Shown here: in pieces, positions 40,047 through 51,946 of the stretch | Numbering within the stretch: position 1 is the stretch's first letter | How the letters are laid out: each line of letters starts with the position of its first letter | NCBI RefSeq assembly: GCF_002028425.1 | Contig: NZ_CP020042.1 | Span: 2,108,001-2,172,000 of the forward strand | Length of the DNA: 64,000 bases | Direction: 5' to 3' | Origin: Streptomyces katrae | GTDB lineage: Bacteria > Actinomycetota > Actinomycetes > Streptomycetales > Streptomycetaceae | The notes under the pieces: generated by a model | Told to the model about the DNA's origin: nothing | The model's database searches: none | Seen by the model: only the letters and a program-made list of their open reading frames with translations | Translations under genes and position numbers: made by a program

Positions 40047-40778
40047 TCAGCCTATGGCGCCGCCGATCCAGGTTCCCAGGACGTACGTCACACCGGCCGC
40101 GGCACCACCCAGGACAAGCTGGCGCATACCGCTGTACCACCAGGACCGGGCCGTGACCCGCGCCACCACCGCGCCGCAGGCGAAGAGCCCGGCGAGCGCC
40201 AGCAGCACGGCCGGCCACAGGGCGGTCGCCCCGAGCAGGTAGGGCAGTACGGGCAGCAGCGCGCCCAGCGCGAAGGAGCCGAAGGACGATACGGCCGCCA
40301 CCAGCGGTGAGGGCAGGTCGTCGGGGTCGATGCCGAGCTCCTCGCGGGCGTGGATCTCCAGCGCCTGCTCCGGATCGCGGGACAGCTGCATCGCGACCTC
40401 GCGGGCGAGGGCGGGCTCGACCCCGCGCGAGACGTAGAGCTCGGCGAGCTCCTCCATCTCGTCGACCGGGTGCTTGCGCAGCTGCTGGCGCTCCACGTCG
40501 AGCTCGGCGAGGACCAGCTCGCGCTGCGAGGCGACGGAGGTGTACTCGCCGGCCGCCATCGAGAAGGCGCCGGCGGCGAGACCGGCGAGGCCGGTGATGA
40601 CGATGGTCGCCGGGGCCACCGCGCCGCCCGCCACGCCGGTCATCAGCGCGAGGTTGGAGACGAGCCCGTCCATGGCGCCGAAGACGGCCGGGCGCAGCCA
40701 ACCGCCGTTGACGTCGCGGTGGGTGTGGTTGTCGCGGTGGGCGGTGTGCAGCGGCGCTTCGGTGTCGATGATGGACAT
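40047..40778 (-). CDS. VIT1/CCC1-family iron/manganese transporter
   Basis: A 243-residue membrane protein. The first helix carries LRPAVFGAMDGLVSNLALMTGV and the second GLAAGAFSMAAGEYTSVASQRE, both VIT hallmarks with metal-binding Asp, Glu and Met. A cytosolic Glu-rich helical loop follows (DEMEELAELYVSRGVEPALA). Three further helices lie near the C-terminus (LGALLPVLPYLLG onward). It likely exports Fe2+/Mn2+ from the cytoplasm. GGGGAGA lies 9 bases before the ATG. It stands alone. Confidence 0.88.
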   Translation of the reverse strand: MSIIDTEAPLHTAHRDNHTHRDVNGGWLRPAVFGAMDGLVSNLALMTGVAGGAVAPATIVITGLAGLAAGAFSMAAGEYTSVASQRELVLAELDVERQQLRKHPVDEMEELAELYVSRGVEPALAREVAMQLSRDPEQALEIHAREELGIDPDDLPSPLVAAVSSFGSFALGALLPVLPYLLGATALWPAVLLALAGLFACGAVVARVTARSWWYSGMRQLVLGGAAAGVTYVLGTWIGGAIG

Positions 40779-41049
40779 GCGGCGTATCTCCCCTTTTCAC
40801 ATGACTTGGGTACGCGCAAGCGACGCGCAGCCGTGCCCTCCCCGGGCACTCCCCTGAACACCTCGAAACTACGCACGATTTGCGGCCGCCGCCAGCAAGG
40901 AAGGCCGTACTTACCTGGGCTTTCGCGGGTCGGCGACCGGGTGACGGGGGTGTTCGGGGGGCGTTTCGCGGCGAGCGACAAACCACATGGCATGGCACAA
41001 ATCCCCCAGGGGCTCATGATGGGTCCCCATCACGTGGGAGAGGCGCGCC

Positions 41050-42030
41050 ATGGAGCTGGTCGCATGCAATCCGCAGGTCCTCCTCGAACGGGCCCGGGGC
41101 GCGCTGCTGGGCCTCGCGGTGGGTGACGCGCTGGGCGCCCCCGCGGAGAACATGAAGCCGTCGCAGATCCGCGCGCGGTGGGGCCGTATCGAGGGGTTCG
41201 TGTCGGAGGACCCGGCGGGCACGGACGACACCGAGTACGCCATCTTCTCCGGCCTGCTGCTGGCGCGCCACGGTTCGGCGCTGACCGTCGCGCACGTGGA
41301 ACGGGCCTGGCACCACTGGATCGCCGACCTGGACGAGGGGCCGTTCCGCGGGGCCGGCTTCTCGGAGCGGGGCACGCTGGAGAACCTGCGCCGGGGCCTG
41401 GCCGCGCCCATCTCGGCGCAGCACCGGCACGCGTGGTCGGACGGGCTGGCGATGCGGGCGGCCCCGTTCGGGGTGTTCGCGGCGGGGCGCCCGGCGGAGG
41501 CGGCCCGCCTGGTCGCGATCGACGGCTCGGTCAGCCACGACGGGGAGGGCATCTACGGCGGCCAGGCCGTCGCCGCCGGAGTCGCGGCGGCGATGGCCGG
41601 GGGCTCCCCCGCGTCGGTCGTCTCGGCGGCCCTGTCGGTCATCCCGCCGGATTCCTGGACGGCCCGCTCCCTGCGGCGCGCGGTCACCGCCGCTCCGGGC
41701 GGGGAGCGGGCGGTGCGCTCGGCGGTGGTCATCGGCGGGTATCCGTGGACGGACCTGGCCCCGGAGGCGGTGGGCCTGGCCTTCGGGGCGTTCGCCGCCT
41801 GTGCGGGGGACTTCCCGTCCTCGGTCCTCACCGCGGTGAACATGGGCCGCGACGCCGACACCACGGCGGCGGTGGCGGGGGCCCTCTCGGGCGCCCTGTC
41901 GGGCGCCGCGGCCATCCCCGCCGCCTGGTCCTCGGCGATCGGCCCGGTCCGCGGCAGCTGCCTGCCGTCGATGCGCGGCTACCACGTCCTGGACATCGCG
42001 GACCTCCTCACCCCGGAGCCCACACGATGA
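41050..42030 (+). CDS. ADP-ribosylglycohydrolase-family protein, ARH-1
   Basis: A 326-residue member of the ARH/DraG fold, first of four in a row. The N-terminal helix reads RARGALLGLAVGDALGAPAE. The first metal site is AGTDDTEYAIF and the second NMGRDADTTAAVAGAL, so both Mg2+-binding clusters are intact and the protein should be catalytically competent. The family removes ADP-ribose from proteins or hydrolyses N-glycosidic bonds of related nucleosides. GGGAGAGG lies about 10 bases before the ATG. It begins a seven-gene operon with four-base overlaps at most junctions. Confidence 0.88.
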   Translation: MELVACNPQVLLERARGALLGLAVGDALGAPAENMKPSQIRARWGRIEGFVSEDPAGTDDTEYAIFSGLLLARHGSALTVAHVERAWHHWIADLDEGPFRGAGFSERGTLENLRRGLAAPISAQHRHAWSDGLAMRAAPFGVFAAGRPAEAARLVAIDGSVSHDGEGIYGGQAVAAGVAAAMAGGSPASVVSAALSVIPPDSWTARSLRRAVTAAPGGERAVRSAVVIGGYPWTDLAPEAVGLAFGAFAACAGDFPSSVLTAVNMGRDADTTAAVAGALSGALSGAAAIPAAWSSAIGPVRGSCLPSMRGYHVLDIADLLTPEPTR

Positions 42031-43835
42031 CCCCACCGGCCGACCCCACCCCGCCGGCCCCCACCCCGGGCCCCGGCAGCACACCCCCGCGCCTGCGCCC
42101 CGCGCCCCTCACCACCACCGCGGCGGGGGTGGGCAGAGGGGCGGGCGTCGGAGGGGGCAGCCGGCCGGGGGCTGTCCTGGCGCCGGGACACGAGGCCACA
42201 GCCGCGGCCGCCGGGCCCGTGGCTCCGTCCCCCGGCGGGGGCGCCGCGGCGGGGGCCGCCCGGCGTGTCCTGGCACCGGGACACCGGGCCGGGGAGCCGG
42301 GCCCCGCCCCGCGCGGCGCCGGGGCCGGGGACGCGCCCGCGGCTGCCGTGGACACCCCGACCGGTGACCGGGCGGGCAGCGGCGGAGTGGGGGAAGGTTT
42401 CGCCGCCCCGGCCGGGGTGGCGGACGGGGCACTGCCCGGCCCCGCAGCGGTGCCGGGACCGGCCCGCACGAACGGGACCCAGGCCGGATCCCGAGAGCTT
42501 GCCCGCACGGACCACACGCAGGCCGCACCACCGGAGACGGCCCACGCGGCCCTCACCCCCGCCGCGCCGCCGGAGGCGGCCCACGCGACCCTCGCCCCGG
42601 CCGCGCCGCCGGGGGCGGCCCACGCGGCCCTTGCCCCCGCCGGGCCGCCCAGGCCCGAGTGCGGCCGCCGTGGGCCGGTCCCGTTGCCGGAGGCGGGGGG
42701 CGGCGGCCGGGGTGGGCTGCGCCGGATCGAGGGGCTGCTGCTCGGGCTCGCCGCCGGGGACGCGGCCGGGTGGCCCGCCGCGCGGCACCGGGCCAGCCGG
42801 ATGCCCGAGTGGACCCGCCGGCTCACCCGCGAGCTCGACACCTTCGCCGAGCAGAACGCCACCACCACCCTCCCCGTCCCCATCGCCCTCAACCAGCCCC
42901 CCGAACCACTGCGCCTGGGCCCCTCCGACGACGCCGAGTGGGCCGCCTTCGCCGCCGAGTCCGTGCTCACCGCCGCCGGCGCGCTGCTCAGCGACCTCTC
43001 CCGGTCCCGCCGTATGCGCGCCGCCCTCGACCTGGCCTGGAACGCCCTGGCCAGCGAGGTGGCCGCGGCGGCGGAACGGGCCCCCGAGGTCGAGTCCGCG
43101 GTGCTGCCGATGCGCGCACGGATCTCCGTACGGGCCGGCCTCGGCAACCTCGCCGCCGGGCTGCGCCCGCCCGCCACCGGCCACGACAACCCGCACTACT
43201 TCGACGACGCCGCCTGCGTCCGCGCCTGCGTGCTCGCCGTCGTCCACCCCGGCGACCCCCACGCCGCCGCCGAACTCGCCGAGTTCGACGCCCGCTACAC
43301 CCAGGACGGGGACGGCGTCCACGGCGCCCGCGCCATGGCCGCCGCCGTCGCCGTCGCCCTCGCCGGGGCGGACACCCGCGCCGCCGTCGACGCCGCCCTG
43401 GAACAGCTGCCCGCCGCCACCGAGATCGGCCGCAACGCCCGGCACGCCGTCAAGCTCGCCCGTACCGACGGCGAGGGCGCCTTCGCCCTCGTCCCGCTCC
43501 TGGAACACCAGATCGTGGACCACGTCTACAGCTACGGCATCGCCGCCGCCGAGACCGTCCCCGTCGCCCTGGCCCTGGCCACCGCGGCCCGCGGCCGGGT
43601 CGCCGAAGCCGTACCGGCCGCCGCCTGCCTCTCCCGGGTCGCCGACTCCGCCCCCGCCCTCGCCGGCGCCCTCACCGGCGCCCTCGGCGGCGGCGACTGC
43701 CTGCCCGCCGCCTGGCGCGAGGCCTGCCGCGTCCTGTCCGGCTGCGCGCTGCCCCGCCTGGCCGGAACCGACCTGGTCGAGCTCGCCGCGCTCCTCGCCC
43801 GTACGGAACTCACCGCACCGACACACAAGGGATGA
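42027..43835 (+). CDS. ADP-ribosylglycohydrolase-family protein, ARH-2, with disordered N-terminus
   Basis: A 602-residue protein. Residues 1 to about 225 are Pro/Ala/Gly-rich low complexity and include degenerate repeats of the type AAPPEAAHATLAP. The ARH domain follows from LRRIEGLLLGLAAGDAAGWP. The first metal motif is SDDAEWAAFAAE instead of TDDT, and the C-terminal DxD is reduced to SRVADSAPALAGALTG, losing its first Asp. It may therefore be weakly active or a structural partner of the other ARH proteins. Its ATG overlaps the ARH-1 stop, supporting the long reading, although an internal start cannot be excluded. Confidence 0.78.
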   Translation: MTPPADPTPPAPTPGPGSTPPRLRPAPLTTTAAGVGRGAGVGGGSRPGAVLAPGHEATAAAAGPVAPSPGGGAAAGAARRVLAPGHRAGEPGPAPRGAGAGDAPAAAVDTPTGDRAGSGGVGEGFAAPAGVADGALPGPAAVPGPARTNGTQAGSRELARTDHTQAAPPETAHAALTPAAPPEAAHATLAPAAPPGAAHAALAPAGPPRPECGRRGPVPLPEAGGGGRGGLRRIEGLLLGLAAGDAAGWPAARHRASRMPEWTRRLTRELDTFAEQNATTTLPVPIALNQPPEPLRLGPSDDAEWAAFAAESVLTAAGALLSDLSRSRRMRAALDLAWNALASEVAAAAERAPEVESAVLPMRARISVRAGLGNLAAGLRPPATGHDNPHYFDDAACVRACVLAVVHPGDPHAAAELAEFDARYTQDGDGVHGARAMAAAVAVALAGADTRAAVDAALEQLPAATEIGRNARHAVKLARTDGEGAFALVPLLEHQIVDHVYSYGIAAAETVPVALALATAARGRVAEAVPAAACLSRVADSAPALAGALTGALGGGDCLPAAWREACRVLSGCALPRLAGTDLVELAALLARTELTAPTHKG

Positions 43836-43842
43836 TTCGAAC

Positions 43843-44988
43843 ATGACGTTCACGCTGGAGGACCGGATCACCGGCTCCCTCGTCGGCGCCGCCGTCGGCG
43901 ACGCCCTCGGCGGCCCGGTGGAGGGCTGGTCCCCCGAGCAGATCGCCGAACGGCACGGCGGCCGCGTGCACGGCGTCGTGGGCCCCTGGTACGAGGACTG
44001 GCGCACCGCCCGCCCCATCGCGCCGTACCACAAGGGCGACGGGCACGTCACCGACGACACCCTCATGACGCACGCGCTGGTACGGGTCTACGCGACCGTA
44101 CGGGACCACCTGGACGCGTACGCGATCGCCGAGCACCTCGTCCCCGACCTGATGTCCGTACCGCGCTGGATCCCCGAGCTGGAGGCCGAAGCCCTGCCGT
44201 TGCAGCGGGTGTTCCTCGCGGAGAAGTGGATCGTGACGCGGCTGCACTACGCGCACGCCGACCCCCGCGAGGCCGGCACCGGCAACATCGTCAACTGCGG
44301 TGCGGCGATGTACATGGCGCCGGTCGGACTGGTCAACGCGGGCAACCCGCAGGGCGCTTACGCCGAGGCGCTGGACATCGCGGGCGCCCACCAGTCCTCG
44401 TACGGACGGGAGGCGGCCGGGGTCTTCGCGGCGGCCGTGGCGGCGGCGTGCCTGCCGGGGGCGACGGCCGCGTCGGTGGTGGAGACCGCGCTGGACCTGG
44501 CCAAGGACGGCACGCGGGCCGCCATCGCGGCGGTACGGGAAGCGGCCCTGCGCCACCGGGACTTCGAGTCCGCGCTCGGGCCGCTGCGGGAGGCGGTGGC
44601 CCCGTACGACTCGGTCGGCCCGGACTACCGCGCACCCTCGCTCGGCGCCCGGCGGCCGTCGCGGCTGCACTCCGTCGAGGAGCTGCCGATCGCCCTCGGC
44701 ATGCTGCTGGTCGCGGACGGCGGGTACGAGACGGCCGTGCTCGGGGCCGTCAACTACGGGCGGGACTGCGACTCCACGGCCGGCATGGCGGGGGCGATCG
44801 CGGGGGCGCTGGGCGGGGCGGGGGCGGTCCCGGAAGGCTGGGCCAAGCGGGTCGCCGAGGCCAGCCGCCTGGACCTGCACGCCCCCGCGACGGTCCTGGC
44901 CGCCGTGGCCCGCGAGGTCTTCACCCGCGACCGCGACCGCCGCCGCGCCCACGAGACGGCGTTCACGGCCCTGGCGTCCCCCCGATGA
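43843..44988 (+). CDS. ADP-ribosylglycohydrolase-family protein, ARH-3
   Basis: A 381-residue ARH-fold enzyme. The N-terminus is EDRITGSLVGAAVGDALGGPVEG. Both metal motifs are intact: DGHVTDDTLMTHALVR and VNYGRDCDSTAGMAGAIAGAL. This subtype, with GNIVNCGAAMYMAPVGLVNA in the middle, is the one often found near ribokinase-like kinases in nucleoside-type catabolic clusters. An AAGGGA site precedes the ATG. It is the only operon junction with a short gap (7 bases) rather than an overlap. Confidence 0.87.
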   Translation: MTFTLEDRITGSLVGAAVGDALGGPVEGWSPEQIAERHGGRVHGVVGPWYEDWRTARPIAPYHKGDGHVTDDTLMTHALVRVYATVRDHLDAYAIAEHLVPDLMSVPRWIPELEAEALPLQRVFLAEKWIVTRLHYAHADPREAGTGNIVNCGAAMYMAPVGLVNAGNPQGAYAEALDIAGAHQSSYGREAAGVFAAAVAAACLPGATAASVVETALDLAKDGTRAAIAAVREAALRHRDFESALGPLREAVAPYDSVGPDYRAPSLGARRPSRLHSVEELPIALGMLLVADGGYETAVLGAVNYGRDCDSTAGMAGAIAGALGGAGAVPEGWAKRVAEASRLDLHAPATVLAAVAREVFTRDRDRRRAHETAFTALASPR

Positions 44989-47033
44989 CCGGGCGCCCCG
45001 CCAGACGTCCGGCCCCGCCGGCCGGTGCCACCCGCGCGCAGCCGGACGCCCCCCGGTGGGCCGCGGCCCGGCGCACCCCGGCGGGGACCGGCGTGCGCAC
45101 CGAAGGCCCCGCGGCGGCACCCGGGGCGGAACTCGTACGGCTGACCTGGGCGCAGCCCGAGGACCTGGTCGGGCACGAGCTGCGGCAGGCCGCCGAGGAC
45201 GGCCGGGACGCCGGGCCGCTCCTGCGGGCCTGGCTGGCGGCGGGCGGCCACCCGGCCCCCGCCCGGGCCGGGGCCTCCCCCACCCCGGCCGGGCCGCAAC
45301 TGCGCGCCCTCGCCACCCGCCTCCTGGACGAACTCGCGGCCCTCCCGGTCCCGTCGGCCGCCGACGAGCCCACGTCCTGGCCCGCCATCCGCGCAACCTG
45401 GCCCCCCGCCACGGGCGACCGAAACGCGTCCGCACCCGCCGCCGCGCCCCACCGCTCGGCAGGCACAGAATCCCGACACCCCACCGCAGGCACGCACCCT
45501 CAACCGGCCGCCGCAGCGATGCCAGGACCCGCCCCGGCCCCCGGCCCGCACCCCCGGCCAGAGGCCATGCCGACCGGGTCGGAGACCCCGGCAGAGCCAG
45601 GGCGCGGGCACGCCCCGGACCGGGGCCCCAGCCCACGCACCCGGCCCCAACCCGCACCGGCCGGTCAGACCGCCGCACCGGCGGAGCCGACCCCGCCGAC
45701 CAGCGCGGCCGACACCACGGGGCCCGGGCGACCCGCCCTGCCGCACACGACCCGCCCCGACACGGACCCGGAACGGCCCGCCCGGCCAGAGGCCGTGCCG
45801 GTCGGGGCGGAGACCCCGGCAGGGCCGGGCGGCCACGCCCCGGAGCGGGGTCCCGGCCCGTGCGCCCGGACCGGCGCCGGGCCGGGCGGCCAGGCCGCGG
45901 CGACCGCCTGTTTTCGTACCCGGCCGCGGGGCGCGGCCGCGGCGGAGCCCGGCGAGGGGGCCGGGGCCGTCGATCCGCTCCTGTGTGCCCGGCTGGAGGC
46001 CGCCTGGCTGGGGCGGGCCGTCGGGTGCGTCCTGGGGAAGCCCGTCGAGAAGCTGCCGCTCGACGGGATCCGGGCTCTGGCCCGGGCCGCCGGGAACTGG
46101 CCGCTCGACGACTGGTTCACCGCCCGCGGCGTCCCCGCGGAGCTCCTGGCCGCCTACCCGTGGAACCGCCGCTCCGCCGCCACCTCCCTCGCCGAGAACA
46201 TCGACGGCACGCCCGAGGACGACGACCTGAACCACCCCCTCCTCGGCCTGCTCCTCCTCCAGCGGCACGGCAGGCGCTTCACCACCGCCGACCTCGGCCG
46301 CCTCTGGCTCGACGAGCTCCCCGCCGGCCGGGCCTTCACCGCCGAACGGATCGCGTACCGCAACCTGCTCCTCGGCCTGGAGCCCCCGCTCACCGCGACC
46401 CACCACAACCCCTTCCGCGAGTGGATCGGCGCCCTGATCCGCGCCGACGTCCACGGCTGGACCAACCCCGGCGACCCGGCCGCCGCCGCCGAGCAGGCCT
46501 GGCGGGACGCCGTCCTCAGCCACACCTCCACCGGCGTCCACGCCGCCCTCTTCGCCGCCGCCACCCTCGCGGAGGCGGCCTCCGGCCGGGCCGACGTGCA
46601 CGGCGCCCTGCGGGCCGGACTGGCCGTCGTACCGCCCCGCTCCCGCCTCGCGGAAGCCGTCCGCTTCGGGATCCGCACCGCCCGCGCGGAGGCCGGCTTC
46701 GAGCGGGTCGTGGACCTGCTGCACGCCCGTTACGGCGGCTACCACTGGGTGCACGCCCTGCCCAACACCGCCCTGATCGCCGCTGCCCTCACCCACGCCG
46801 ACGGGGACTTCACCCGTTCCGTGTGCGGCGCGGTGTCCGGCGGCTGGGACACCGACTCCAACGGGGCCACCGCCGGCTCCGTCGCCGGGCTGCTGGCCGG
46901 CTCCGCCGACCGGATCCCCGAGCGGTGGACCGCGCCGCTGGGGAACCGCCTCTCCACCACCGTCGCCGGTTTCGACGGCGTCGGCTTCGACACCCTCGCC
47001 CGTCTCACCGCCCAGGAGGCAGCCCGACCATGA
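44985..47033 (+). CDS. ADP-ribosylglycohydrolase-family protein, ARH-4, with long N-terminal extension
   Basis: A 682-residue protein. The first 325 or so residues are Pro/Ala/Arg/Thr-rich, with a short ordered-looking block near 45-85 (ELVRLTWAQPEDLVGHELRQ). The ARH domain starts at LLCARLEAAWLGRAVGCVLG. Its first metal motif is the variant GTPEDDDLNHPLL, and the second SGGWDTDSNGATAGSVAGLL keeps DxDS. Homologues of this ARH subtype occur with ribokinase genes. The start overlaps the ARH-3 stop (ATGA), and the ribokinase ATG overlaps its own stop. Confidence 0.82.
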   Translation: MTGRPARRPAPPAGATRAQPDAPRWAAARRTPAGTGVRTEGPAAAPGAELVRLTWAQPEDLVGHELRQAAEDGRDAGPLLRAWLAAGGHPAPARAGASPTPAGPQLRALATRLLDELAALPVPSAADEPTSWPAIRATWPPATGDRNASAPAAAPHRSAGTESRHPTAGTHPQPAAAAMPGPAPAPGPHPRPEAMPTGSETPAEPGRGHAPDRGPSPRTRPQPAPAGQTAAPAEPTPPTSAADTTGPGRPALPHTTRPDTDPERPARPEAVPVGAETPAGPGGHAPERGPGPCARTGAGPGGQAAATACFRTRPRGAAAAEPGEGAGAVDPLLCARLEAAWLGRAVGCVLGKPVEKLPLDGIRALARAAGNWPLDDWFTARGVPAELLAAYPWNRRSAATSLAENIDGTPEDDDLNHPLLGLLLLQRHGRRFTTADLGRLWLDELPAGRAFTAERIAYRNLLLGLEPPLTATHHNPFREWIGALIRADVHGWTNPGDPAAAAEQAWRDAVLSHTSTGVHAALFAAATLAEAASGRADVHGALRAGLAVVPPRSRLAEAVRFGIRTARAEAGFERVVDLLHARYGGYHWVHALPNTALIAAALTHADGDFTRSVCGAVSGGWDTDSNGATAGSVAGLLAGSADRIPERWTAPLGNRLSTTVAGFDGVGFDTLARLTAQEAARP

Positions 47034-47971
47034 CGGCCATCGCCGTGCTCGGCAGTACCAACATGGACCTCGTCGCCTACGTCCCCAAGGCCCCGCACCC
47101 CGGGGAGACCGTCACCGGACGGGAGTTCCGCACCGTTCCCGGCGGCAAGGGGGCCAACCAGGCGGTGGCCGCCGCCCGCCTCGGCGGGCAGGTGGTGATG
47201 ATCGGCGCCGTCGGCGCGGACGAGTTCGGCGTCCAGCTGCGGGCGGCCCTCGCCGGGGCGGGGGTGGAGACCGCCGCCCTGCGCACCGTCGAGGGGGCCA
47301 GCGGCACCGCCCACATCACCGTGGACGACGAGGGGGCGAACAGCATCATCGTGATCCCCGGCGCCAACGGCCGCGTCACCGGCCTGGAGCCGGGCGACGA
47401 CTCCCGCATCGGCGCCGCCGACTGCCTGCTGCTCCAGCTCGAACTCCCCCTGGAGGCCGTCCTCGCCGGCGCCCGCGCCGCCCGCGCCCACGGGGTGCGC
47501 ACGGTCCTCACCCCGGCCCCGGTGCGGCCCCTGCCGCCCGAACTCCTCGCCGCCACCGACCTGCTGGTCCCCAACGAGCACGAGGCCGCCGCCCTGACCG
47601 GGCTGACCGACCCGCACCGGGCCGCGGAGGTGCTGCTGCGGGAGGTACCGGAGGTGGTGATCACCCTGGGGGCGGCGGGCTGCCTCCACGCGGCCCGGGG
47701 GCGTGAGCCGCTGACCGTGCCGGCGCCCCGGGTGCGGGCCGTGGACACCACCGCCGCCGGTGACACCTTCGTGGGGGCGCTCGCGGTGGCCCTCGGGGAG
47801 GGCCGGCCGGTGCCGGAGGCGCTGCGCTGGGCCTCGGTGGCGGCGTCCCTCTCGGTGCAGCGGCCGGGGGCGCAGTCCTCGATGCCGACGCGCACGGAGA
47901 CGGATGCCGCCGCCGCCCTGGCCGGGCCCCCGGGGGCGGAGCCCGGCCTCCCCCCGGGGGACCCCTCATGA
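47030..47971 (+). CDS. Ribokinase-like PfkB-family sugar kinase
   Basis: A 313-residue kinase. It opens IAVLGSTNMDLVAYVPKAPH and has the PfkB signature 1 GGKGANQAVAAARLGG. Signature 2, DTTAAGDTFVGALAVAL, carries the catalytic Asp and anion hole. It should phosphorylate ribose or a related furanose released by the ARH-type hydrolases encoded immediately upstream. ATG overlaps the ARH-4 stop. The closest well-known parallel is the E. coli yegU-yegV pair (ARH-family hydrolase plus PfkB kinase). Confidence 0.88.
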   Translation: MTAIAVLGSTNMDLVAYVPKAPHPGETVTGREFRTVPGGKGANQAVAAARLGGQVVMIGAVGADEFGVQLRAALAGAGVETAALRTVEGASGTAHITVDDEGANSIIVIPGANGRVTGLEPGDDSRIGAADCLLLQLELPLEAVLAGARAARAHGVRTVLTPAPVRPLPPELLAATDLLVPNEHEAAALTGLTDPHRAAEVLLREVPEVVITLGAAGCLHAARGREPLTVPAPRVRAVDTTAAGDTFVGALAVALGEGRPVPEALRWASVAASLSVQRPGAQSSMPTRTETDAAAALAGPPGAEPGLPPGDPS

Positions 47972-49233
47972 CCCCGGCCGGCCCGGACCCGGACCCGGAT
48001 CCCGGCCCGGCCCCCGCCCCCGGACCGGCCCCCGCCCCCGGCCCGGGTTCCGGACCCCTCGCCGGGCTGCGGGTGCTGGACCTGGCCACCCTGTTCGCCG
48101 GGCCCCTCGCCGCCACCCTGCTCGGGGACTTCGGGGCCGAGGTGGTAAAGGTCGAGCACCCCGGGCGGCCCGACCCCTCGCGCGGGCACGGCCCCGCCAA
48201 GGACGGGATCGGGCTGTGGTGGAAGCTGCTCGGGCGGAACAAGCGGACGATCACCCTCGACCTGTCCACCCCCGGCGGCCGGGACACCCTGCTGCGGCTG
48301 GCCGCCACCGCCGACGTCGTGGTCGAGAACTTCCGCCCGGGCACCCTGGAGAGGTGGGGCCTGGGCTGGCCCGAGCTGTCGGCCGCCAACCCCCGCCTCG
48401 TCCTGGCCCGGGTCACGGCCTTCGGCCAGCAGGGCCCGTACGCCCGCCGGCCCGGCTTCGGCACCCTCGCCGAGGCCATGAGCGGCTTCGCCGCGATCAC
48501 CGGCGAGCCGGACGGCCCGCCGACCCTGCCACCGTTCGGCCTCGCCGACTCCATCGCCGCCCTGACCTGCGCGTACGCCGTGATGACCGCGCTCGCCGGC
48601 CGGGAGCGGACCGGACACGGCCAGGTGGTGGACCTGGCGATCATCGAGCCGATCCTGACCGTGCTGGGCCCGCATCCGCTCTGGTACGACCAGCTCGGCT
48701 ACGTCCAGCCCCGCACCGGCAACCGTTCCGCGAACAACGCCCCCCGCAACACCTACCGCAGTGCGGACGGCCGCTGGCTGGCGGTGTCCGCGTCGGCGCA
48801 GTCCGTTGCCGGGCGGGTGGTCCGCCTGGTCGGGCGGCCCGAGCTGGCCGACGAGCCCTGGTTCGCCACCGGCGCCGGCCGGGCCGCGCACACGCACGTC
48901 CTCGACGAGGCGGTCGGCGGCTGGATCGGCCGCCACAAGGCGGAGGAGGTGGTCACGGCCTTCGAGGAGGCAGAGGCGGCCGTCGCCCTGGTCTACGACG
49001 TACGGGACGTGCTCGCCGACCCGCAGTTCGCGGCCCTCGGCACGGTCACCGAGGTCGAGGACCCCGAACTCGGCCTGCTGCGGATGCAGAACGTCCTCTT
49101 CCGGTTGTCGGAGACCCCCGGCGGGATCCGCTGGGCGGGCCGCCCGCACGGCGCGGACACCGAAGCCGTCCTGACCGAACTCGGCCTGACCCGGGCCGAG
49201 ATCACCGCTCTGCGCACGGAGGGTGCGTTGTGA
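47968..49233 (+). CDS. Class III (CaiB/BaiF) CoA-transferase
   Basis: A 421-residue enzyme after a Pro-rich lead of about 28 residues. Features are VLDLATLFAGPLAATLLGDF, EVVKVEHPG, KRTITLDL and the probable nucleophilic Asp in FGLADSIAAL near residue 194, then HGQVVDLAIIEP. It moves CoA between carboxylic acids. In this operon it probably activates a dicarboxylic or hydroxy acid for the lyase encoded next. The identity of donor and acceptor cannot be read. The gene overlaps both neighbours. Confidence 0.85.
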   Translation: MTPAGPDPDPDPGPAPAPGPAPAPGPGSGPLAGLRVLDLATLFAGPLAATLLGDFGAEVVKVEHPGRPDPSRGHGPAKDGIGLWWKLLGRNKRTITLDLSTPGGRDTLLRLAATADVVVENFRPGTLERWGLGWPELSAANPRLVLARVTAFGQQGPYARRPGFGTLAEAMSGFAAITGEPDGPPTLPPFGLADSIAALTCAYAVMTALAGRERTGHGQVVDLAIIEPILTVLGPHPLWYDQLGYVQPRTGNRSANNAPRNTYRSADGRWLAVSASAQSVAGRVVRLVGRPELADEPWFATGAGRAAHTHVLDEAVGGWIGRHKAEEVVTAFEEAEAAVALVYDVRDVLADPQFAALGTVTEVEDPELGLLRMQNVLFRLSETPGGIRWAGRPHGADTEAVLTELGLTRAEITALRTEGAL

Positions 49234-50039
49234 TCCTGACCTGGCTTTACGCACCCGGGGACCGCCCGGCGGTGGTGGAGAAGGCCCTGCGCTGCGGGGC
49301 GGACGCCGTGATCGTGGACCTGGAGGACTCGGTGTCGGCCTCCCGTAAGGAGTACGCCCGCGCCGCCACCGCCGAGCTCCTCGCCGAACGCCCGCCGGTG
49401 CCGGTACACGTCCGGGTGAACGCCCTGGGTTCCCCCTGGGCCGGGGCCGACCTCACGGCACTGGCCCGCCTGCGCGGGCTGGCGGGGCTGCGGCTGCCGA
49501 AGGTCGACGCCCCGGAGCAGATCGTCCGCGTCGCGGACCGGACGGGCGGGGTGCCGCTGTACGCGCTGCTGGAGTCCGCGCTGGGGGTGGAGCGGGCGTA
49601 CGACATCGCCCGCGCGCACCCTTCCCTGCAGGGGCTGACCCTGGGCGAGGCGGACCTCTGCGCGGACCTCGGGGTGTGTGCGGAGGGCGGGCTCGACTGG
49701 CCGCGCTCCAGGGTGGTCGTGGCCGCCCGGGCCGCCGGGCTGGCGCCGCCGGCGCAGTCGGTGTTCCCGGACATCCGGGACCTGGAGGCACTGGCCGCGT
49801 CCTGCGCGCGGGGGCGTTCGCTGGGGTTCCTGGGGCGGGCGGCGATCCACCCCCGGCAGCTGCCGGTGATCGAGCGGGCGTTCCTTCCGCGGCCGGAGGA
49901 GGTCACCGCGGCGCAGGAGGTCGTCACGGCGGCCCGGGCCGCGCCCGGTGCCCTGGCCCTCCCGGACGGCCGCTTCATCGACCCCGCGGTCGTGGCGGCC
50001 GCCCACCGCACCCTCTCCCTGTCCCAGCGCCCCCGCTGA
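49230..50039 (+). CDS. HpcH/HpaI aldolase/citrate lyase-family protein (CitE-like)
   Basis: A 269-residue TIM-barrel lyase. It opens TWLYAPGDRPAVVEKALRCG, followed by VIVDLEDSVSASRK, and has the metal-site segments LLESALGVERAYDIA and GLTLGEADLCADLG, with Glu and Asp Mg2+ ligands. Such proteins cleave malyl-, citramalyl- or related hydroxyacyl-CoA. Together with the CoA-transferase it resembles an activation-then-cleavage route. GTG overlaps the preceding stop. The last 74 bases are repeated downstream (50157-50230) without a stop codon. Confidence 0.86.
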   Translation: MILTWLYAPGDRPAVVEKALRCGADAVIVDLEDSVSASRKEYARAATAELLAERPPVPVHVRVNALGSPWAGADLTALARLRGLAGLRLPKVDAPEQIVRVADRTGGVPLYALLESALGVERAYDIARAHPSLQGLTLGEADLCADLGVCAEGGLDWPRSRVVVAARAAGLAPPAQSVFPDIRDLEALAASCARGRSLGFLGRAAIHPRQLPVIERAFLPRPEEVTAAQEVVTAARAAPGALALPDGRFIDPAVVAAAHRTLSLSQRPR

Positions 50040-50287
50040 CCCCCCACCCGGCCCGGCCTGGCCCCCTTGCCCGGCACCGCCCGCCCCACATGTCCCGGGC
50101 CCGACCTGGCACGCCTCCTGCCCGGCCCGGGCGGCCCCGGGGCCCTCGCGCTCCCCGACGGCCGCTTCATCGACCCCGCGGTCGTGGCGGCCGCCCACCG
50201 CACCCTCTCCCTGTCCCAGCGCCCCCGCTGCCCCCCCCCCCCCCCCCCCCGGCCCGGCCTGGCCCCCTTGCCCGGCACGGCCCGCCC
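49965..50287. repeat. Tandem duplication of the citE-like 3' end with a 20-C tract
   Basis: Bases 49965-50038 recur exactly at 50157-50230 (74 of 74), and 50050-50077 recur at 50251-50278. The copies are 192 and then 201 bases apart. Where copy 1 has the stop TGA and a short C-rich linker of 11 bases, copy 2 has 20 consecutive C (50231-50250). This occupies the first half of the 719-base gap before lgt; no gene is supported here. Confidence 0.85.
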
Positions 50288-50329
50288 CCGCAGGGCCCCG
50301 ATCGGCGCGGGCCGACCGCGGCCCTGCGG

Positions 50330-50685
50330 GGCTGGTCTCCTACCCGCCCTTCCACCGTTCCCAGGAGCGCCGCCCCTGACCTCCAGCTACCGCTGGGAGG
50401 CGCCGGCGGGGCTGGAGCGTCCCTGGGCTCCGCCCCGGACCCCGTGCCGGGCGCTGCGCGCCCAGGGCGTTCAAGCGCCGCGCGGGCTGGAATTTCGCTG
50501 CGCGAAATCCGGCCGCGGTAAGGCCGCAGCCGACGGACCGGCCGCGCCGAATCCAGCCCCGCCGGCGTTTGAGGCGCTGGGGGAGGGTCTGGGGGCGGAG
50601 CCCCCAGGGAGCGGGCGAAGTGGGGGTCCCCCCGGACGGAGTCTGGGGGAGGGTAGGGGACCTCCGCCCCGCACAGCGGCACCCC
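50330..50685. repeat. Dispersed palindromic intergenic repeat, copy 2
   Basis: A large imperfect palindrome: CTCCTACCCGCCCTTCC near 50337 mirrors GGAGGGTAGGGGACC near 50647. GGGCTCCGCCCCGGACCCC near 50408 mirrors GGGTCTGGGGGCGGAGCCCC near 50585. The same modules appear in the same order at 6268-6525. A central ATTTCGCTGCGCGAAAT palindrome lies at about 50490. No coding is supported. Confidence 0.65.
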
Positions 50686-50713
50686 GCACCCCGCAACTGC
50701 CACCCGGCACGCC

Positions 50714-50748
50714 GAAGGGGGCGCCGCACCCGGTGCGGCGCCCCCTTC
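50714..50748 (-). terminator. 17-bp hairpin after lgt
   Basis: GAAGGGGGCGCCGCACC (50714-50730) is fully complementary to 50732-50748, so the real loop is formed by opening the top pairs. It lies 11 bases past the lgt stop codon. Confidence 0.85.
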
Positions 50749-50758
50749 GGGCGGGTCG

Positions 50759-51946
50759 TCAGCTCTTGTCGGACTCCGGGCCCGCGTCCGCGCCGGCCTT
50801 GGTCAGCCCGACCGGCTTCGCGTCGGCCTTGTCGTCTCCCGGTCCCGCAGCGGCACCGGCGGCGCCCTCCGGCGTCGCCGCCTCAGCCCCGGCGGCGGCG
50901 TCGGACTTCGCAACCTCAGCCCCCGCGAGGGCACCCGGCTTCGCAGCCCCAGCCCCGGCGGCGGCCTCCGGCTTCGCGTCCCCGGCTCCGGCCTCCGCGC
51001 CCGCGGCCCCGGCGGCGGCCTCCGGCTTCGCGTCTTCCGCCCCGGCAGCGGCCGGCTTCGCCTCGGCGGCATCGGCGGCCCCGGCCTGCGCAGCAGCCGG
51101 CGTTTCGTCCCCGGAACCCCCGGCGCCCCCGGCAGGTTCCGGCTCCACGACCGTCTCCCGCCCCGGCCGCAGCTTCGCGGAGAGGACGAAGTAGACGACC
51201 GCGAGGACGAAGACCACGATGGCCGTCCACACGTTCAGACGGAGGCCCAGGATGTGGTGCGCCTCGTCGACCCGCATGTACTCGATCCAGACCCGCCCCG
51301 AGCAGTACGCCGCCACGTACAGGGCGAAGGCCCGCCCGTGCCCGAGCTTGAAACGGCGGTCGGCCCAGATGACCAGGGCGGCGACGCCCAGGCACCACAG
51401 GGACTCGTACAGGAAGGTCGGGTGGTAGAGGCCGGCGACCCGGTTCGGGCCCTCGCTGATCTTCAGCGCCCACGGCAGATCGGTAGGGCGCCCGTACAGC
51501 TCCTGGTTGAACCAGTTGCCCCAGCGGCCGAAGGCCTGGGCGACGGCGATGCCGGGGGCCAGGGCGTCGGCCCAGGCGGGCAGCGGGATGCCGCGCAGCC
51601 GGCAGCCGATCCAGGCTCCCACCGCGCCGAGCGCGATCGCGCCCCAGATACCGAGGCCGCCCTCCCAGATCTTGAAGGCGTCGACCCAGTCCCGGCCTTC
51701 GCCGAAGTAGAGCTGGTAGTCGGTGATCACGTGGTAGAGGCGACCGCCGACCAGGCCGAACGGCACCGCCCACACGGCGATGTCCGCGACCGTGCCCGGC
51801 TTTCCGCCGCGCGCGATCCACCGCTTGTTGCCGAGCCAGACGGCGACGAAGACGCCGATGATGATGCAGAACGCGTAGCCGCGGAGCGGGATCGGTCCGA
51901 GATGGATCACGCCGGTCGACGGACTGGGGATGTAAGCAAGGGTCAT
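50759..51946 (-). CDS. lgt: Prolipoprotein diacylglyceryl transferase with Ala-rich tail
   Basis: A 395-residue membrane enzyme that transfers diacylglycerol from phosphatidylglycerol to the lipobox Cys of prelipoproteins. The first 260 residues hold seven hydrophobic segments. Signature elements are GGRLYHVITDYQLYF, WEGGLGIWGAI and GRWGNWFNQELYGRPTDLPW. The last 130 residues are a charged Ala/Pro/Lys/Glu repeat tail (AKPEAAAGA-type units) absent from short homologues. ATG 51946 gives the canonical N-terminus MTLAYIPSPSTGVIHLGPIP; the longer open frame upstream is not used. A hairpin follows the stop. Confidence 0.96.
   Translation of the reverse strand: MTLAYIPSPSTGVIHLGPIPLRGYAFCIIIGVFVAVWLGNKRWIARGGKPGTVADIAVWAVPFGLVGGRLYHVITDYQLYFGEGRDWVDAFKIWEGGLGIWGAIALGAVGAWIGCRLRGIPLPAWADALAPGIAVAQAFGRWGNWFNQELYGRPTDLPWALKISEGPNRVAGLYHPTFLYESLWCLGVAALVIWADRRFKLGHGRAFALYVAAYCSGRVWIEYMRVDEAHHILGLRLNVWTAIVVFVLAVVYFVLSAKLRPGRETVVEPEPAGGAGGSGDETPAAAQAGAADAAEAKPAAAGAEDAKPEAAAGAAGAEAGAGDAKPEAAAGAGAAKPGALAGAEVAKSDAAAGAEAATPEGAAGAAAGPGDDKADAKPVGLTKAGADAGPESDKS

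Follow-up and report, generated by a model that had tools for sequence, protein, structure and literature searches.

A conserved Streptomyces operon of four ARH-fold proteins, a ribokinase, a CoA-transferase and a CitE-like lyase as a candidate locus for glycoside catabolism

Small loci that join a protein of the ADP-ribosylglycohydrolase (ARH) family to a sugar kinase and a transporter are known from E. coli, where yegTUV(W) lies under a repressor and its gene functions are given as unknown in the passages of PMC10819704 that deal with it, and from staphylococci, where the trio SERP2216-2218 consists of an ARH, a ribokinase and a permease (PMC3637587, in its treatment of these genes). The operon described here occupies positions 41050-50039 of the plus strand of a 64,000-nucleotide stretch of the Streptomyces katrae genome (contig NZ_CP020042.1, positions 2,108,001 to 2,172,000; the whole stretch is called the window) and is a row of seven genes: four with the ARH fold, a ribokinase, a class III CoA-transferase and a CitE-like lyase. 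It differs from yegTUV(W), for which the same passages of PMC10819704 give one ARH, a predicted nucleoside symporter, a GntR repressor reported to sense ADP-glucose and three genes only, and from the staphylococcal trio, which has one ARH and a permease of the cytosine/purine/uracil/thiamine/allantoin type and for which the relevant part of PMC3637587 lists no acid branch. The operon is real, conserved and larger than a first-pass annotation of this DNA saw, a probable catabolic locus of known families for which no description was found; a literature search, outside whose coverage lay most subscription journals and all preprints, yielded no paper recognized as describing ARH proteins with a CoA-transferase and a CitE-like lyase. 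On balance we favor reading it as the cytoplasmic half of a system that catabolizes an imported glycoside, and not as a system that controls ADP-ribosylation. The features are as follows:

41050..42030, plus strand: ARH1, ADP_ribosyl_GH fold, both Asp motifs intact (PF03747, 202.7 bits; motifs GTDDTEYA and GRDADTTA)
42027..43835, plus strand: ARH2, N-terminal low-complexity region and degenerate ARH domain (PF03747, 120 bits, residues 236-561)
43843..44988, plus strand: ARH3, with a Hyphomicrobiales plasmid counterpart of about 41-44% identity (PF03747, 177.1 bits)
44985..47033, plus strand: ARH4, small conserved helical N-terminal region, long linker and ARH domain
47030..47971, plus strand: ribokinase (RBK), above the TIGR02152 cut-off, closest PDB matches ribokinases
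47968..49233, plus strand: class III CoA-transferase (COAT; PF02515, 404.2 bits)
49230..50039, plus strand: CitE-like C-C lyase (CITE), GTG start (PF03328, 118.9 bits)
40890..40945, no strand assigned: conserved stretch in the VIT-ARH1 intergenic region, GCCAGCAAG in 84 of 93 upstream regions

The junctions of the row measure -4, +7, -4, -4, -4 and -4 bases in order, as the first-pass annotation had described them. All seven proteins have Pfam matches above cut-off (PF03747 in four, PF00294, PF02515 and PF03328 in one each), and four of the seven PF03747 matches genome-wide lie inside the operon. ARH3 was found in 88 of 121 Streptomyces genomes and the COAT orthologue in 89 of the same 121 (both in 84, ARH3 alone in 4, COAT alone in 5, neither in 28; Fisher p 3e-18 for co-occurrence), and the two genes are at most 6 kb apart in 81 of the 84; of the other three genomes, two are fragmented assemblies that have the genes on separate contigs (G085, G099), and one has them truly apart (G012). 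In the last of these genomes just ARH2-ARH3 were found at the locus (L076), about 0.2 Mb from the contig end, with COAT 4.8 Mb off. The COAT search spanned 122 genomes, of which G000-G120 were counted for co-occurrence and G507 was left out, and COAT matches below about 74% identity were treated as paralogues, except the partial high-identity matches of G082 and G114.

Across the class, ARH3 was found in 62 of 394 genomes, of which 33 lie outside Streptomyces. Gene order was compared at 141 loci around ARH3: 60 from these searches (33 non-Streptomyces and 27 Streptomyces), 80 from a genome collection, and Nonomuraea. The 27 were drawn from the 88 Streptomyces matches (7 most similar, 20 by handle order); a fragment (G382) and weak second matches of G267, G287 and G244 were not fetched. 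The collection loci are the best 80 of 582 relatives, a scan with distant phyla outside its view, and all are from Streptomyces except [Kitasatospora] papulosa and Actinacidiphila; because the sets overlap in species, the 141-locus counts are not independent. The first-pass annotation had proposed that the seven genes form one unit, had named a co-occurrence search in other actinomycetes as its check, and had named as refuting it a split between the ARH genes and the three downstream genes or a stop of transcription before the kinase. All seven genes stand in order at 91 of the 141 loci, 69 of which belong to the Streptomyces set and 22 do not; 27 loci, all from the Streptomyces set, lack only the ribokinase, and 23 show other patterns, many of them ending at a contig end. 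A 4-base overlap is possible at 72 of 73 Streptomyces-set ARH4-RBK junctions and 25 of 27 others, and at 99 of 102 Streptomyces-set COAT-CITE junctions. The stretch 40700-50800 showed neither a sigma-70-like promoter nor a terminator-like site, a null result that says little because the genome is so G+C-rich. The genes thus hold together as one unit, and at the level of sequence a transcriptional break between ARH4 and the kinase is not borne out.

LacI-controlled CUT1 loci for the use of glycosides are a general kind, and their layout, with LacI and importer beside the enzymes, is that of the relatives of this operon outside the main Streptomyces form, which comprise LacI, two sugar-type permeases, a binding protein, ARHs, ribokinase, often a TIM-barrel glycosidase-like protein, COAT and CITE. 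LacI lies immediately 5' of the permease gene PERM1 on the same strand in 37 of 37 permease-bearing loci, and no ATPase gene was seen beside the actinomycete importer loci. What sets these loci apart from the general kind is that their hydrolases have the ARH fold and that the window's own form has neither regulator nor importer. The regulator and sugar-type importer of the relatives point to an imported glycoside and away from an ADP-ribosyl adduct, which the first-pass annotation had entertained as a substrate. A search for palindromes in the 37 LacI-PERM1 gaps gave a shared candidate operator only in three close relatives (L040, L042, L043). Importer, ARH3, COAT and CITE are present even in L056 and L059, whose genomes measure just 1.8 and 1.3 Mb, a hint that the substrate is common and worth using. 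A TIM-barrel/FGE protein is encoded 5' of COAT in 18 loci, with GH13 and alpha-galactosidase structures as its nearest folds. The TIM-barrel and FGE-like fusion (L057 5078-7078) has 2022 relatives at E <= 0.001 among 7994 scored; where the source names them, they are named after the FGE part only, and the barrel has no Pfam model. A methyltransferase, a carboxypeptidase (3' of CITE) and a thioredoxin (upstream) are recurrent but look like plain neighbors.

A search of a plasmid collection with ARH3 matched 22 records, 20 of them from Hyphomicrobiales, of which 12 loci were fetched (L009-L012, L206-L213); ARH3 identity is 40.7-43.8% in 11 of the 12, and in L213 the match is in two pieces. The annotation of Ensifer sp. 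PDNC004 and Sinorhizobium sp. B11 reads LacI, two permeases, binding protein, two ARHs, UgpC, CoA transferase and CoA ester lyase. By local search LacI, two permeases, a binding protein and UgpC are present in all 12 loci, COAT follows UgpC in seven (43-51%, best piece), and CITE was found in five of these seven, while a sixth (L213) is annotated with an aldolase/citrate lyase. As judged from gene content, some loci in each phylum keep the ARH pair linked to the acid branch, and the ribokinase is optional. These rows and the ARH3-COAT linkage in Streptomyces uphold the earlier inclusion of CoA-transferase and lyase in the unit. A Sphingopyxis sp. FD7 plasmid carries, consecutively, a TonB receptor, a ribokinase, a TIM/FGE protein, a GH127-like protein and a CoA-transferase, with no ARH annotated within the 19 kb shown.

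RBK scores 316.3 bits against the cut-off of 299.65 of the ribokinase equivalog TIGR02152 and falls below model NF008353 (276.5 versus 341); its next-best match in its own genome has 36% identity and an internal stop. The association of an ARH with such a kinase, which the first-pass annotation had pointed out, recurs with transporters in unrelated bacteria and would suit a salvage of the yegTUV kind, in which ribose released by an ARH from a modified N-riboside is trapped by ribokinase, and COAT and CITE serve an unrelated acid. ARH, importer and ribokinase occur in M. arabiense (LacI, an ARH4-like protein of 43%, importer, ribokinase), on a Deinococcus aetherius plasmid (LacI, permeases, binding protein, an unknown, ARH, ribokinase, ARH) and in A. 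tumefaciens HAMBI 105, where the nearby annotation lists neither a CoA-transferase nor a lyase in any of the three, and the part of PMC3637587 on these genes gives ARH, permease and ribokinase alone for S. haemolyticus and S. epidermidis. We consider this salvage improbable: COAT and CITE are kept more often than the ribokinase (131 loci each versus 100 of 141), they accompany the ARH pair in Ensifer and Sinorhizobium loci that gave no ribokinase, and the importer of the relatives is of the sugar type. The kinase, which the first-pass annotation called ribokinase-like, is thus a ribokinase but dispensable to the pathway in which it was placed, being missing in 27 otherwise complete loci.

All four ARH proteins score above the PF03747 cut-off of 26.2 (120-202.7 bits) and are separate families, with 54-69% identity (best piece) to their own Nonomuraea counterparts versus 30.5-34.5% among the cross-family matches listed, as expected from the earlier view that they differ in subtype. 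The ARH domain spans residues 236-561 of 602 in ARH2 and 339-647 of 682 in ARH4, both of which have long low-complexity regions. In the ARH4-like proteins of L009, L010 and L011 (about 690-700 residues) a 400-residue C-terminal part has no Pfam match. The Asp residues of the ARH motifs belong to the metal site, and all four are present in every copy read of ARH1 (126-127), ARH3 (141) and ARH4 (136), bar one ARH1. In ARH2 the first Asp motif is intact in 134 of 135 copies, and the first Asp of the second motif is replaced in 134 of 134 (105/105 and 29/29) by V, L, T, N or K; four of the 141 loci lack both ARH1 and ARH2, and one of the four (L060) is truncated by a contig end. On this evidence ARH2 is probably a non-catalytic partner of ARH1, so that of the "four hydrolases" originally seen three have intact motifs and one is probably degenerate.

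The four consecutive S. coelicolor genes SCO2028-SCO2031 are, as we presume from gene order, the orthologues of the window's operon. They are counted among eight uncharacterized DraG/ARH homologues of that species in the relevant part of PMC9411070, and SCO2028-SCO2030 among seven in that of PMC5087735; where PMC5036795 was seen to name SCO2028, it does so only in a primer and plasmid description. On the assumption made for these genes, the ARHs would remove ADP-ribosyl groups from proteins, nucleic acids or small molecules, and the ribokinase and acid enzymes would be accidental neighbors. The fold and metal motifs are indeed like those of the known ARH3/DraG enzymes, but the order with CoA-transferase and lyase is kept in two phyla, a sugar importer and LacI accompany it in relatives, and SCO2028 and SCO2030 had no activity on U-alpha-ADPr, the one substrate in question, in the pertinent part of PMC13036486. 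The operon's ARHs differ from the known ADP-ribosylhydrolases DraG/ARH1/ARH3 in this context of sugar uptake and acid breakdown, and they reach neither the DraG nor the Tri1 NCBIfam equivalog, the best scores of the four lying far below cut-off (TIGR02662, 73.6 versus 337.05; NF041672, 45.8 versus 490). A role of the operon in ADP-ribosylation is accordingly the least likely of the explanations weighed here.

The Asp of the FGLAD motif of class III CoA-transferases is catalytic, and it is present in 131 of 131 copies of COAT read. COAT (PF02515, as listed) reaches no NCBIfam equivalog of a named subfamily, its best score being 230.3 versus 750 for the succinate-glutarate type. CITE has PDB matches to the acyl-CoA lyase beta chain and to citrate and malyl-CoA lyases; its motif Glu and motif Asp are each intact in 130 of 131 copies, and it lies below the NCBIfam cut-offs of RipC (146.2 versus 375) and citE (136.1 versus 443.4). 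The itaconate/citramalate branch, which uses a CoA-transferase and a lyase of the RipC/Ccl, CLYBL or Rv2498c type, likewise combines a class III CoA-transferase with a CitE-like lyase; the operon differs from it in that its lyase falls short of these cut-offs and that no hydratase is in the row. The window's genome has two additional COAT-CITE pairs (COAT 62-65%, CITE 44-49%), about 5 kb apart (L193 3472-15163), where gene calling by codon G+C missed genes and open-frame lists were added. One pair is followed by a gene of the MmgE/PrpD family, a family associated with methylcitrate and aconitate-type acids; its position fits a di- or tricarboxylic hydroxy-acid, without naming one.

In the proposed pathway, the fuller form of the locus would be governed by a LacI repressor, relieved by the glycoside, that controls a CUT1-type ATP-binding cassette (ABC) importer for a small glycoside. 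The ARHs may act as glycosidases, the core pair ARH3 and ARH4, and ARH1 with ARH2 as its non-catalytic partner, cleaving glycosidic bonds that by family chemistry would most likely be 1,2-cis (alpha) ribofuranosyl. The ribokinase would then trap the freed ribose as ribose 5-phosphate, COAT would load the freed acid with CoA, and CITE would cleave the acyl-CoA to acetyl-CoA (or similar) and an oxo-acid. The LacI/importer-bearing form is probably ancestral; in the main Streptomyces form, whose fixed place is between gltB and lgt, repressor and importer would have been lost and the enzymes kept. Our best guess at the substrate is a 1,2-cis ribofuranoside of a hydroxy-acid, which would yield ribose 5-phosphate, acetyl-CoA and an oxo-acid; the ribofuranosyl part is suggested by the chemistry of ARH enzymes, by the ribokinase and, weakly, by the GH127-type enzyme in the place of the ARHs in Sphingopyxis. 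The substrates considered on general grounds were HMG, citramalate, malate, arsenosugars, alpha-ribazole and apiose compounds, none of which is favored by any result.

Several observations weigh against this pathway. RBK is missing in 41 of the 141 loci (some ending at contig ends), including the permease- and CITE-bearing L055, L056, L058, L059 and L089. COAT-CITE was not found beside Nonomuraea L008, L046 and L047 despite at least 7 kb following, nor COAT in five of the 12 Hyphomicrobiales loci (L011 and L211 of these have a ribokinase and L009 a ribokinase piece), nor an ARH4-like gene in L012. Enterobacter L205 and Agrobacterium L204 have an ARH with only part of the transporter, the Halalkalicoccus ARH adjoins other acid genes, and the Spirosoma TIM/FGE protein has other sugar genes around it and no annotated ARH. 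The ARH3 tree gives neither direction nor strong support for importer loss, and the Nonomuraea binding protein has its best match in the window's genome at 26% (no close relative).

Given that 26% match and the lack of an adjacent regulator or importer in the window form, the substrate there may arise inside the cell or be taken up by another route. The Streptomyces row could have been re-used, once repressor and importer were lost, for an internally made compound such as a damage product or the cell's own conjugate. PERM1 is present in none of 99 gltB/lgt-type loci and the TIM/FGE gene in none of those with gltB, and on the ARH3 tree the importer-bearing rows are separated by one change (support 85/89). 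A different importer could serve, however, the enzyme motifs are intact, and five Streptomycetaceae loci retain the importer. Such re-use seems rather unlikely, though less so than salvage of a modified nucleoside.

The row is flanked on the left by genes which we take, from the look of the proteins, to be VIT and gltB, divergent from it, and on the right by presumed lgt and trpA, convergent with it; neither a LacI regulator nor an importer was found in these flanks. The 93 upstream regions compared are those of the window and 92 Streptomyces-set loci. GACCGGGTG is present in 54 of them, and within 40890-40945 CGCCAGCAAGGAAGGC and GACCGGGTGA are kept in many Streptomyces-set loci. The exact 16-base form of the conserved stretch occurs once in the genome, and its folded stability is not unusual (z -0.7 and -1.2). 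Rfam at gathering thresholds gave no match in window positions 34000-56000 or in seven related loci. Just 3' of the row the end of the lyase gene is duplicated (49930-50241; 93.3% over 120 bases) and followed by a long C run; the genome search also saw this duplicate, as a 34-residue match of 91%.

The interpretation given in the first-pass annotation is, overall, partly supported. A broader proposal, which we put forward tentatively, is that these proteins are the ARH-fold glycosidases of a pathway widespread in Actinomycetota and Alphaproteobacteria for a common environmental hydroxy-acid furanoside, with ARH1-ARH2 as an active/inactive heteromer, that they make up half of the Streptomyces ARH surplus, and that in Streptomyces they may work without the importer on an internal substrate. 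SCO2028-SCO2031 are four of the eight listed homologues; if they are this operon, probable catabolic glycosidases are now being treated as ADP-ribosylation erasers, and small glycosides would be relevant compounds for these ARHs. The locus offers a pathway open to assay, with acyl-CoA cleavage as its defined end, and a likely pair of dead and active subunits, and the regulator and binding protein of the relatives are handles for fishing the ligand. It is also a likely case of an uptake operon losing its importer within one family, in which enzymes usually filed under ADP-ribosylation are suggested to be ordinary sugar-cutting enzymes.

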